Source: Mesostigma viride (lineage: Eukaryota > Streptophyta > Mesostigmatophyceae > Mesostigmatales > Mesostigmataceae). Taken from it: a stretch of DNA of 64,000 bases. The stretch covers positions 5,579,924 to 5,643,923 of the forward strand of contig RPFO01000027.1 of assembly GCA_009746045.1 (NCBI GenBank), read 5' to 3'. The notes under the pieces were generated by a model, which worked only from the letters and a program-made list of their open reading frames with translations, was not told where the DNA came from and did no database searches. Shown here in pieces: positions 50,798-63,932 of the stretch. Made by a program: the position numbers and the translations under genes. The stretch's first letter is position 1. The number at the start of each line of letters is the position of its first letter.

Positions 50798-51115
50798 TCA
50801 CGCTGGTGGGCCCGCGGCTGGTGCCGGCGCCGGCGCCACCCCCTCGTCTATACACGGCAAGTACAACACTTGGGATGACGTGGCCGTGCTGTGGGTGCTG
50901 TTGCTCGCGTCACCCGTTACATTTGCCGGCATTCCACCGCTGGCGGCACCCATCCCATTGGCCGCCGCGCTAACGCCCAAGTGCTTGCGGAGCAGCCGCA
51001 GGTGAGCTTGCTCTCGCCGCGCTTGGGCCTTGCGCTTGAGGGTGTCGCGCACCTCGGGGGGGAGGTCGTCGATGGAGAGGCCCATTGCGCGCTGGGTGAG
51101 AGCGTTGAGCACATC
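50798..51115 (-). CDS. Channel exon: C-terminal tail and stop
   Basis: The acceptor TTGATTCAG is followed in phase 0 by [20 protein letters not shown] and a basic helix [20 protein letters not shown], then a Ser/Asn/Ala-rich end and TGA. Placed after the EF-hand exon it corresponds to the pre-IQ region of calcium channels. Two diverged copies of the acceptor edge (GACGTGCTCAAC) lie upstream at about 51164-51178 and 51401-51416. Confidence 0.7.
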   Translation of the reverse strand, partial: DVLNALTQRAMGLSIDDLPPEVRDTLKRKAQARREQAHLRLLRKHLGVSAAANGMGAASGGMPANVTGDASNSTHSTATSSQVLYLPCIDEGVAPAPAPAAGPPA

Positions 51116-63100: not shown

Positions 63101-63932
63101 CTGATGTACTGACGTGAAGGATGCATGCTAGCAGGTTACCAGCAACGCCACTCACGTTGGTCCACTCCTTGGTCATCGGTACCACAAACCAAACTGGCTA
63201 TGTACTAATAGTAAATGTTAGTATCTAAAATAGTGGCAAATTGTAATGCTCCACCACTCACTTCAGTCCACCCCTCGGTTGTGGCCATCTCAAATAGGCA
63301 CAGCATCGCGTTGAGGATGTTGTCAAAGTTGCAGTCCTTGTTCCTCCATTCGCGCGGTGAGCCATCACGCCCATCAAAGCCGACGCACGCCTCCCGCGGC
63401 GATCCTGAGAGCAAGCACGACAAGGCCATCCCACCACACGGGCAAGTAGTAGTGCGATTGAACACGTGATGGTGAATGACTAGCCCACGCACGTCTCCGG
63501 CGGCAAGCGTGCAAGAAGCGGACGCCCATGCCAGCATGTGTGCAAGTGAATATGATTGTGAGTGACGAGCCCACCTGACATTCCTATTCTTGTATACAAC
63601 AGAAGTACAGTTCCTACTCTGATCGTATACAATAGCCATAGCATTTTCGTTCTTGTACTCTACTGTAGCGTTCCAATTCTTGTGGTAAAATGCCATCCGC
63701 GTTGTTATTCTTGTACTACTATACAATAGCAGTAGCGTTCCTATTCTTGTACACAATAGCCATAGCATTCCTACTCCTGTACAACTATAAGATAGCAATA
63801 GCATTCCTATTCTTGTAGCATGAGCCATCCAAGTTCTAGTACCCTACTGTAGGACTAAACCCCTAAGTACCTTAGGACTCACCCGCGGCGCTGTCACCGG
63901 AGCAACACCCAAACCGCCGCGCCGGCAGCTGA
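50798..63932 (-). CDS. Four-domain voltage-gated calcium-channel-like protein, 3' part of gene
   Basis: Minus-strand exon chain: 63932-63883 (tentative), 63404-63262, 62466-62337, 61841-61742, 61121-60750, 59649-59443, 54535-54433, 53729-53592, 52679-52464 and 51115-50798. Every junction has AG/GT borders and matching phase, and the joined protein reads continuously. It runs from the domain III pore loop and S6, through the III-IV linker, all of domain IV (S1-S4, S5, pore, S6), an EF-hand-like region and a C-terminal tail. Such channels sit in the plasma or ciliary membrane and pass Ca2+ or other cations on depolarisation. Both visible pore loops carry glutamate (TTEGW in III, TGENW in IV), as expected for Ca2+ selectivity. 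Domains I and II lie beyond 64000. Confidence 0.88.
51458..51606. repeat. (AG)n microsatellite with G run
   Basis: About 108 bases of pure AG follow a 17-base G run and a shorter AG stretch, in the last intron of the channel gene. In the gene's sense it is (CT)n followed by C. Confidence 0.95.
51735..51914. repeat. 9-base minisatellite (ATGGCTATT)n, left block
   Basis: About 20 units, nearly uniform, in the last channel intron. A MITE separates it from a more diverged block at 52176-52310. Confidence 0.9.
51917..52175. mobile_element. MITE related to the 473-bp element, 259 bp
   Basis: The left end CCGTAGTGGTCAAAATCACT and the right end, inverted, CCGTCTTGGTCAAAATCACT continue to match through GCGACAAAT. 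TA precedes the left end, but the right flank has lost it. It shares CCGTAGTGG and AAATCAC with the MITE at 48155-48627 and sits inside the 9-base minisatellite. Confidence 0.75.
52176..52310. repeat. 9-base minisatellite, right block
   Basis: Diverged units of ATGGCTATC and ATGGCCATT. It is the other side of the array interrupted by the MITE. Confidence 0.85.
52464..52679 (-). CDS. Channel exon: EF-hand-like region after domain IV S6
   Basis: 216 bases, phase 0 at both ends, between GGCACAG and a GTAATT donor. It encodes [20 protein letters not shown], then [19 protein letters not shown] and [18 protein letters not shown]. Calcium channels have the same order (HLDEF.RIW..yDp, L.r.i.PPLG) just after the last transmembrane segment. 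The EF loop lacks several canonical acidic positions. Diverged copies of the 3' edge lie at 52339-52396 and of the 5' edge near 52760-52795. Confidence 0.9.
52929..53009. repeat. 9-base minisatellite (GTGAGTGGG)n
   Basis: Eight copies on the plus strand, in the intron between the S6 and EF-hand exons. The plus-strand units look like splice donors, but the gene is on the other strand. Confidence 0.9.
53592..53729 (-). CDS. Channel exon: domain IV S6
   Basis: 138 bases, 46 codons, phase 0. It encodes [20 protein letters not shown] and [20 protein letters not shown], the classical S6 with the conserved N and the FIAVVLENF end. Degenerate copies of its last roughly 75 bases recur at 53436 and about 53290, and copies of its first bases at about 53843 and 53985. 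The 53436 copy keeps an open frame (FIAAVLENS) and an intact GTGAGA donor. Confidence 0.95.
54433..54535 (-). CDS. Channel exon: domain IV pore loop
   Basis: 103 bases, starting with one base of a split glycine codon and ending in phase 0 at GTGAGC. It encodes [20 protein letters not shown] and [19 protein letters not shown] holds the selectivity-filter glutamate in the place of the TGEAW of calcium channels. Copies of its 5' edge occur at 54649-54676 and 59111-59138. The hAT element inserted exactly at the end of the first copy. Confidence 0.95.
54714..54812. repeat. hAT left subterminal repeats, 33 bp x 3
   Basis: Units start at 54714, 54747 and 54780, each with GGCTGACTTGCCGCCGTTGG and ending GGCGCGTC. 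They are likely binding sites for the transposase. Confidence 0.9.
55172..55366 (-). repeat. Repeats in the transposase 3' UTR
   Basis: Three copies of ACACAACCTAGGTCTAGGAA followed by GCTTGGGCC (near 55172, 55254, 55337) lie just downstream of the transposase stop. Their spacing is about 80 bp. Confidence 0.7.
55371..58271 (-). CDS. hAT-family transposase, intact
   Basis: 966 codons from ATG at 58269-58271. A TTG four codons upstream also opens the frame, but ATG is preferred. Residues are counted from that ATG. There is an acidic/serine-rich N-terminus with basic SKRKR (about 50-55). A BED/TTF-like zinc finger follows (ECTVC...HELSTGH, about 174-203). The RNase-H-like core has [12 protein letters not shown] (first acidic site, about 331-338), [10 protein letters not shown] (second, about 406) and the CPAHRNSLV motif (about 435). 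Near residues 857-890 lies the C-terminal dimerisation motif [19 protein letters not shown]. The order matches hAT transposases of the KIAA1586/ZNF862-like type. No frameshift or stop interrupts it. Confidence 0.93.
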   Translation of the reverse strand: MAPEGILGKIKSGGIAAFLRPKQVADTAKAPAPGPPAIVGVGQAADALNRSKRKRGDDSNAASSAAAASAQSGSAGEPPGRSSEKEASSDESDSGKDGDALVSAATGSGQRNPIDVSSDEEAAKEQLRKQKKKQRGIKYDEKREPRDEWWEDDKFSWAKKVPPPTQGGKWQIECTVCSNGSGSPYLLACKKQRMVVHELSTGHTTYQRKLDKQVARGQPVKDLTLSTRLFGTAGKAFRAAAQGRTQREHECMTNAFTLAYSTLLNARPMQAFEQTMEVVKYISRRDGSTASLPLPEKYENDNAGWVFAECINEVQKEDLREVLRDTPFFGISVDDSSDLSKKEQECIMVYPLEDGFRTTKFLELHELPNGVATAENVAKGILECLTTTGGFDLKTLARKMTAIAADGANVMQGEDKGAITLCREWFAPFALPSWCPAHRNSLVYKTTLEHDIVERLQLLLADVAADIRKSTVRTGAFQLQQLVRGHCKSLQIKAMHDVRWVSICGALERVIEEYDALLAFYVERMETATKPEDKQKAENIYARLTSAEFVLAAHGLLAMFQQMDILSLSFQREDSHYADVGRLLEKTTRTIEELYVGDGATCGAAFQALLQGTDCEGSEDGGGDDAEPGEDALVLHGATPEPERPVATRVRFEEMEDGTVKLVDMGKEVGYEVSFNTRGRPTAERVHAARVTRSRKQVRLATQPDTAKLKHQVAGVKQKLAAVADTVLTSFDERFPAVDMMQAFEVLHPEWWEDPKPTSELADTINPIVQLYCEKQTCTPPEGEPFVVEPLVRKEDLMAQYPDFKRVMKAWPRAGMDEEGRTIYAPWRMEWAKKVRSTALINLMPAWLTVVRIYLSLPVGSVPNERVFSAMNNIKNKRRTSLKKEHLDAAMRTHVNALPLAEFEKRGGYVRAYQLWCAGDVKRRLHGKTGNRYTAAKSNPAINAQPAGSLELEEALPSDDDDRLVL
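58815..58990. repeat. hAT right subterminal repeats
   Basis: Many CTGACG, CGTCAG and TTTACGCGTCAG units in both orientations next to the right terminal repeat. They share the CGTCAG core with the left-end units. Confidence 0.85.
59443..59649 (-). CDS. Channel exon: domain IV S4 end to S5
   Basis: 207 bases. The first base completes an arginine codon and the last two begin a glycine codon. It encodes [20 protein letters not shown], then the S5 helix [20 protein letters not shown] and HSNFKNFG before the pore. Joined to the upstream exon it gives five arginines spaced every third residue. Copies of its 3' edge lie at 59314-59375 and of its 5' edge at about 59751-59773 and 60055-60076. Confidence 0.95.
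60750..61121 (-). CDS. Channel exon: domain IV S1-S4
   Basis: 372 bases, phases +1 and +2. It encodes a short basic linker, S1 ([20 protein letters not shown]), S2 ([20 protein letters not shown]), S3 ([18 protein letters not shown]) and the start of S4 (SLFRIF). The conserved acidic and aromatic residues of a voltage-sensor domain are present. Degenerate copies of the 3' edge (GATGCGGAAnAGGC) occur at about 60450 and 60615. Confidence 0.95.
61742..61841 (-). CDS. Channel exon: domain III-IV linker
   Basis: 100 bases with two-base overhangs. It encodes [20 protein letters not shown] and [12 protein letters not shown], which matches the start of the III-IV linker of calcium/sodium channels (vdNF......lT..Qr.wv...). 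A decayed copy of its 5' half lies at about 61895-61965. Confidence 0.92.
62046..62225. repeat. About 59-bp tandem repeat, three copies
   Basis: Units contain CCATCTCTCATGAGGAGCCT and TACATTTGTCAACAACTAAC. They lie in the intron between the domain III S6 and III-IV linker exons. Confidence 0.9.
62337..62466 (-). CDS. Channel exon: domain III pore exit and S6
   Basis: 130 bases, phase 0 start, leaving one base of a glycine codon. It encodes [20 protein letters not shown] and the S6 helix [20 protein letters not shown]. Acceptor-edge copies recur upstream near 62575, 62699 and 62823. The first still has a CCTACAG acceptor and an open start [10 protein letters not shown]. Confidence 0.95.
62500..62835 (-). 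repeat. About 123-bp tandem repeat built on an exon edge
   Basis: Three units, each holding a diverged acceptor plus the first roughly 30 bases of the domain III S6 exon, and intronic GGGTAAGAAAnnnGGGGC sequence. The period is about 123-124 bp between units. Confidence 0.85.
63262..63404 (-). CDS. Channel exon: domain III pore loop
   Basis: 143 bases, with two bases of a split codon at the acceptor and phase 0 at GTGAGT. It encodes [19 protein letters not shown] and [20 protein letters not shown], then TTEGWTE. NFDNI.NAM..LF....EGW is the calcium-channel domain III pore helix, with the filter glutamate. Edge copies lie at about 63151-63185 and 63480-63545. Confidence 0.93.
63575..63830. repeat. 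About 30-bp tandem repeat in a channel intron
   Basis: Roughly eight diverged units of the form TTCCTATTCTTGTACACAAT followed by AGCCATAGCA. Confidence 0.85.
63883..63932 (-). CDS. Tentative channel exon: domain III S5-pore linker
   Basis: A GTGAGT donor at 63881-63882 leaves one base that pairs with the two bases of the next exon. The frame reads [16 protein letters not shown], a plausible cysteine-bearing extracellular loop. The acceptor could be at 63933 or 63929. It is short, so confidence is limited. Confidence 0.5.

Follow-up and report, generated by a model that had tools for sequence, protein, structure and literature searches.

The introns of a voltage-gated cation channel gene of Mesostigma viride contain diverged copies of the gene's own splice junctions. 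The 3' part of this gene lies on the minus strand of a 64,000-nucleotide stretch of DNA, referred to as the window (C335:5579924-5643923 of a 439.9 Mb assembly). The copies, called ghosts below, are in direct orientation and likely stem from repeated tandem duplication of about 125 bp straddling a junction, each duplication probably lengthening the intron in which it occurred.

In the window, nine GT-AG exons (63404-50798, minus strand) join into one open frame of 574 amino acids, and further exons of the gene lie upstream, beyond the window. The frame matches Ion_trans (Pfam E 1.7e-84), with two ion-transport stretches, and its best solved relatives are four-domain calcium and sodium channels, whose C-terminal half it matches. 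A protein labelled Mesvir1 is the closest, at 49% identity to the product of the window gene; it is encoded elsewhere in the assembly, at C1467, where identity is 87-99% for 10 of the 11 matches listed and 69% for the remaining one. Two paralogs, A (C335:3.75 Mb) and B (on C91), have the same eight introns as the window gene, at positions common to the three genes. All gene comparisons were made within this one assembly.

For each exon edge, 60 bases of exon only were compared with the adjoining intron; because these queries held no intron sequence, the composition of splice sites and pyrimidine tracts cannot create matches. The cut-off was a score of at least 13, which was reached by 18 of 1008 control comparisons. 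Under these conditions, the intron next to the edge holds a copy of it for 12 of the 16 edges examined in the window gene. The first-pass annotation, made from the letters of the window, had reported such copies at almost every exon edge; the observation is confirmed, with 'almost every' being somewhat strong as a wording. For 14 of 16 edges, the own intron gave the single best score among the eight, and for the 12 edges over the cut-off, scores in all other introns of the gene stayed at 13 or below. The copies are also specific for the side of the exon, being found in the own-side intron for 12 of 16 edges versus the opposite-side intron for none of 15. Permutation of edges and introns gave a maximum summed score of 273 in 100000 trials versus 317 observed, and reverse-complement matches to the own intron scored 7 to 11. 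Seven exons upstream of the window, whose borders are approximate, have copies on the right side at 9 of 14 edges versus 2 of 14 on the wrong side, bringing the gene to 21 of 30 edges, the highest count among the genes sampled. With exon-only queries no copy was found for donors 62337 (score 7) and 61742 (score 9), and donors 63262 and 54433 (scores 11 and 10) stayed below the cut-off; an intron-side repeat of donor 54433 is present at 54320. Acceptor 61121 was counted at exactly 13 and was not recovered in the 24-row listing of copies.

Most of the individual copies proposed by the first-pass annotation were recovered. Those that it had placed at 53436 and about 53290 (donor 53592), at 54662 and, past a hAT transposon, about 59135 (acceptor 54535), at 59773 and 60076 (acceptor 59649), at about 60610 and 60447 (donor 60750), at 62575, 62699 and 62823 (acceptor 62466), at about 61960 (acceptor 61841) and at 52339 (donor 52464) were found at 53436 and 53289, 54671 and 59135, 59768 and 60069, 60612 and 60442, 62574, 62697 and 62817, 61957, and 52337, respectively. 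For acceptor 53729, the copy proposed at about 53876 was found at 53870 and the one proposed near 54003 did not reach the cut-off of the 24-row listing; for donor 63262, the copy is present at 63156 with the score below the cut-off given above. A self-alignment, which had been put forward as a check, was run as BLAST on the eight introns with their exons and gave, at E <= 1e-3, 30 direct pairs and 2 inverted ones; a single 9-base repeat array in intron 8 accounts for 12 of the direct pairs. At this threshold, junction-spanning direct pairs were found in introns 1, 4, 5, 6, 7 and 8 and none in introns 2 and 3. Intron 8 carries nine-base GCTATTATG-type arrays at 51735-51916 and 52177-52303.

The distance between a real edge and its first ghost is 106-156 bp for 11 edges of the window gene, in agreement with the earlier estimate that most steps measure 100-160 bp; acceptor 51115, with steps of 60 and 297, is the exception. 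Over all genes sampled, the 32 strong matches have a median step of 124 bp, and 27 of them lie within 70-180 bp. Repair of paired nicks or flaps in plants and yeast gives tandem duplications of tens to about a hundred bases and is a candidate cause of this step size. The hAT transposon, which carries a 977-amino-acid frame (55374-58304, minus strand), is inserted inside the first ghost of acceptor 54535, and this ghost therefore predates it.

Table. Channel exons, ghosts of their edges and the hAT transposon in the window (steps in bp from the real edge).
Feature	Position	Strand	Remarks
Voltage-gated cation channel gene, 3' part	50798..63404	-	exons in next two rows
Channel exons 1-5	63404-63262, 62466-62337, 61841-61742, 61121-60750, 59649-59443	-	
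Channel exons 6-9	54535-54433, 53729-53592, 52679-52464, 51115-50798	-	
Ghost of donor 63262	63156..63188	-	step 106; weak (exon-only score 11)
Ghost 1 of acceptor 62466	62536..62574	-	step 108
Ghost 2 of acceptor 62466	62658..62697	-	step 231; site now GG
Ghost 3 of acceptor 62466	62786..62817	-	step 351; site now AC
Ghost of acceptor 61841	61902..61957	-	step 116
Ghost 1 of donor 60750	60612..60640	-	step 138; site now AT
Ghost 2 of donor 60750	60442..60470	-	step 308
Ghost 3 of donor 60750	60220..60266	-	step 530; site now GG; score 25; absent from first-pass annotation
Ghost 1 of acceptor 59649	59749..59768	-	step 119; exon bases 20/20
Ghost 2 of acceptor 59649	60037..60069	-	step 420
Ghost of donor 59443	59320..59363	-	step 123; absent from first-pass annotation
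Ghost 1 of acceptor 54535	54646..54671	-	step 136; broken by hAT insertion
Ghost 2 of acceptor 54535	59107..59135	-	step 259, hAT and one target copy excluded
Ghost 1 of donor 53592	53436..53509	-	step 156; exon part 65/74
Ghost 2 of donor 53592	53289..53362	-	step 303; site now CT
Ghost of acceptor 53729	53842..53870	-	step 141
Ghost of donor 52464	52337..52387	-	step 127; site now AC
Ghost of acceptor 52679	52773..52802	-	step 123; absent from first-pass annotation
Ghost of acceptor 51115	51397..51412	-	step 297; absent from first-pass annotation
Ghost of acceptor 51115	51156..51175	-	step 60; absent from first-pass annotation
hAT transposon	54677..59009		hAT dimerisation domain; 8-base target duplication TAGCTGCA at 54669-54676 and 59010-59017

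Comparison of the paralogs relates the ghosts to intron length. At the same cut-off, 12 of the 16 edges of the window gene, 6 of those of A and 1 of those of B have copies, and total intron length is 6539 bp in the window gene (hAT excluded), 6297 bp in A and 3305 bp in B; per intron, length correlates with ghost number (Spearman 0.50, P 0.012). The exons of A and B are 91% identical and their introns align at 79-84%. Intron 1 is 618 bp long in A and 270 bp in B and aligns at 84%, and the global alignment of the two holds two gaps of at least 25 bp, one of 121 bp that begins six bases past the donor and one of 199 bp that ends three bases before the acceptor. This intron differs in length between A and B mainly by blocks at its two splice junctions, and in local alignment its donor end also pairs in a second register, which is what repeated units would produce. 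In A, a 74-base unit spanning the donor of exon 6 is followed by copies that keep 72 and 62 of the 74 bases, and B has a separate duplication of about 70 bases across this donor. Intron 2 of A (L005) contains a nearly uniform 62-base minisatellite of about 870 bp, which makes up most of its extra length there.

The intron flanks of the units were then scored against each other across the three genes. The A ghost at -199 scored 32.5 with the acceptor in use in B, and the A ghost at -91 scored 25.5 with the acceptor in use in the window gene, whereas the other cross-gene acceptor pairs scored 5.5 to 8; in the whole acceptor matrix a ghost pair of the window gene scored 46, and the remaining 25 of the 28 pairs 5.5 to 9. 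Among donors, the A ghost at +113 scored 39 with the donor in use in B, the second donor ghost of A scored 23 with a ghost of B, and the donors in use in A and in the window gene scored 17 with each other, the other 18 of the 21 pairs ranging from 5 to 13.5. A random null for these scores (95% point 35.0) is inflated by the 62-base array, so the comparison rests on the score matrices themselves. A relic junction in one gene thus resembles the working junction of another, and this similarity of flanks suggests that what has become a ghost in one paralog serves as the working site of another. As A and B are more closely related to each other than either is to the window gene, the most economical account, which draws on the weak donor score of 17, would be that B lost a donor unit, and that units come and go while the working junction changes from one unit to another.

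Junction copies are also present outside the channel genes. Thirty loci matched by a channel protein, among them exons of the window gene and its paralogs, overlap each other and were not used for rates; CCT chaperonin was the only non-channel family sampled, with seven loci, two of them partial, and approximate exon borders. In these loci, 19 of 74 edges have a copy on the right side versus 2 of 74 on the wrong side and 140 of 4640 in cross-gene comparisons, with the searched intron limited to 1000 bp, which dropped one distant match. Donors dominate (15 of 37, versus 4 of 37 acceptors). In a smaller set of four CCT genes, 15 of 47 edges had a copy versus 63 of 1636 control comparisons.

A sequence of events that would account for these results begins with a duplication across a donor or acceptor, yielding two copies of the junction. 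The copy attached to the exon would stay in use, and the other would end up inside the intron and drift. With the exon edge held by selection, its resemblance to the ghosts would persist long after repeats made of intron sequence only have lost their homology. This similarity could then seed further unequal exchange, deletion and gene conversion, so that junction units would be gained and lost in the manner of an accordion and the unit in use would come to differ between paralogs. Taken furthest, selected exon edges might act as permanent seeds, and junction-anchored accordion introns, in which the functional site moves between units and the protein stays unchanged, might be found genome-wide; this extension is tentative, and we hold it to be possible rather than probable. 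The interpretation given in the first-pass annotation is partly supported. Its main element, that tandem duplication across junctions lengthened these introns, is supported by the direct orientation and side specificity of the copies, by some units that include intron sequence, by the young and clean array at the exon 6 donor and by the length difference at junctions between paralogs. The interpretation needs to be amended in that junction copying is not special to the channel gene, in that some units seem to have been lost and not only gained, with the junction in use differing between paralogs, and in that its decoy donors and acceptors are putative.

Several observations weigh against duplication across junctions as the source of the ghosts and of intron length. 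Of 21 comparisons between the intron parts of adjacent units, 13 show no significant homology, and the other 8, in which these parts are homologous (P <= 0.03), favor duplication. Pooled over 11 acceptor ghosts, identity falls from 0.84 in the last five intron bases to 0.29 in the next five, in an ungapped comparison to which indels contribute and in which the flank of the first ghost of acceptor 54535 is hAT sequence. In two upstream ghosts the exon part is preserved at 42 of 43 and at 60 of 60 bases next to unrelated intron sides, which plain tandem duplication followed by neutral decay does not predict. Paralog B is almost devoid of copies in the compared exons (1 of 16 edges), its upstream exons having them at 3 of 12 edges with 1 wrong-side match, and two of the seven CCT loci have none. 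The gaps that abut junctions (320 bp in intron 1 and 212 bp in intron 7) make up about 18% of the 2992 bp by which the introns of A exceed those of B, and most of the remaining excess is intron-internal, including the 62-base array in intron 2. The loss of a donor unit in B is backed by a weak score (17), little higher than those of other donor pairs. Finally, when exons were masked in 45 introns, 17 of the 22 direct duplication loci touched no junction.

This last result bears on a serious rival to seeding by exon edges, namely that ordinary tandem duplications of about 90-180 bp occur throughout introns and that those at edges are merely more visible, with no preference for junctions. We consider this plausible, although somewhat short of an even chance. 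Intron-internal direct duplications of similar size do exist, as the masked introns show, and in four CCT loci all pairs within 300 bp are direct (12 versus 0 inverted) and 5 of the 12 are purely intronic. Direct pairs also exceed inverted ones in five stretches with channel genes (11/1, 53/6, 13/1, 17/0 and 24/0); the excess is smaller in the first 50 kb of the window, which is rich in transposons (11/7). However, five of the 22 exon-masked loci touch an intron end, versus 1.41 expected under uniform placement (Poisson P 0.015, on small numbers), and this mild excess fits a selected edge recombining with its own ghosts. Identity limited to the exon and the switching of units between paralogs likewise suggest continued exchange at edges. 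As tandem duplications of similar size occur inside introns, what is seen at junctions may be the readable portion of a more general duplication process.

The unrelated flanks could alternatively mean that repair or template switching copies some tens of exon bases, together with the splice site, into the neighboring intron and leaves the flanking intron sequence behind. Many ghosts are indeed similar in the exon and unrelated in the intron, most clearly the two best-preserved upstream ghosts, which point either to gene conversion with the exon as donor or to copying restricted to the exon edge. As a general explanation we find this unlikely, since whole-unit duplications exist: the exon 6 donor arrays, a ghost of donor 53592 with 71% identity over 66 intron bases, and the acceptor copies 62574 and 62697, which share 62 of 75 bases. 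Moreover, old units are expected to lose their intron homology first, since drift acts on both copies of the intron sequence but on just one copy of the exon sequence, which leaves similarity confined to the exon part and the splice site. A clean tandem model for every ghost is rejected by the same intron-flank comparisons. The upstream ghost with 60/60 identity (L011-L012, C335:5643924-5663700, near joined position 9081-9392) is exactly 20 codons long, with AG and GT at its sides and unrelated intron flanks, and could be a candidate spliceable extra exon.

The exon parts of the ghosts were also examined for signs of function. They are 83% identical to the exons over 19 ghosts (570/686), or 82% (544/660) without row 51175, which overlaps the real exon (26/26) and inflates the former figure. 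Five of the 24 listed rows (63018, 60220, 59171, 60638 and 54320) were left out of the codon, identity and flank analyses. Mismatches at codon positions 1, 2 and 3 number 33/230, 34/228 and 49/228 (0.143, 0.149 and 0.215), a pattern that fits a freely drifting copy because the exon it is compared with changes mainly at third positions. Alternative exons under coding constraint, which the first-pass annotation had considered, are ruled out by these counts and by the copies being partial exon ends. The ghosts might instead be alternative or regulatory splice sites under selection at the nucleotide level, for instance for unproductive transcripts. In keeping with this, the ghost of the exon 1 donor at 63156 has a similar donor copy in both paralogs, about 100-115 bases into the corresponding intron, and three of the four such sequences that were read contain GTGAGTGGC; the two upstream ghosts keep 98-100% of the exon edge beside unrelated flanks; and GT or AG is retained in 17 of the 24 listed rows, or in 14 when only the 19 ghosts of the further analyses are counted. 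Yet this retention is about what 83% identity alone predicts (0.83 squared = 0.69), and the site is lost in ghosts 60612, 60220, 53289, 52337, 62697 and 62817. One ghost contains the hAT element, copy numbers vary widely between paralogs and the codon positions reveal no coding constraint, making this explanation rather improbable. Chance, low complexity or an introner-like transposable sequence deserves almost no credence: microsatellite and minisatellite arrays occur in these introns, but the permutation, wrong-side, reverse-strand and cross-gene controls rule out chance and composition, and with them the outcome, envisaged in the first-pass annotation, of copies no more similar than random intron, and the ghosts match their own edge with no shared element.

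Intron length is usually ascribed to transposons and random indels. Introners, or introner-like elements, are a known case of introns being shaped serially across a genome; there many introns share one sequence, whereas the channel ghosts resemble only their own junction (14 of 16 best in their own intron). Exon sequence is repeated in the adjoining intron after tandem exon duplication, which leads to mutually exclusive exons; unlike duplicated exons, the channel copies comprise a single splice site and some 16-75 bases of the adjoining exon end and are free of coding constraint. Tandem duplication is an accepted source of new introns (PMC4974935, PMC3443670), and in the potato RdRp case the duplication crosses an intron-exon border (PMC4974935). 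The channel gene is like the potato RdRp type of intron gain, as described there, in that the tandem duplication falls within a gene. In those cases the duplication creates a new intron, whereas in the channel gene an existing intron would be lengthened, at positions that are the same in three paralogs, and the process recurs at many junctions, the junction in use apparently varying between paralogs. The mean intron of M. viride measures 1141.9 bp, with repetitive elements making up 30.1% of intron space, and the accessible part of that genome report attributes the long introns to repetitive elements and makes no mention of junction-spanning duplication (PMC6947507). In the open-licence literature, subscription papers not being covered, we found no description, within the accessible text, of serial intron lengthening by junction-spanning duplications.

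If duplication across junctions is as common as the seven CCT loci suggest, it would provide a route to long introns that needs no transposon. It would also be a source of spare splice sites and a possible cause of errors in gene annotation, and it could serve as a clock, since selected edges keep duplications readable after intron-only copies have faded. This genome, with its paralog pairs, makes the process directly countable.

Elsewhere in the window, there are two very long GAGG tetranucleotide arrays, at 1747-2734 (about 255 copies) and 26667-29569 (about 742 copies), the latter with a strong strand skew. A LINE-like element at 3208-9376 spans several overlapping frames, one of which has an RVT_1 match, and by our own reading only may include an endonuclease-like part. 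A minus-strand frame at 22008-22892 gives a borderline match to the PARP catalytic domain, just under the Pfam cut-off.

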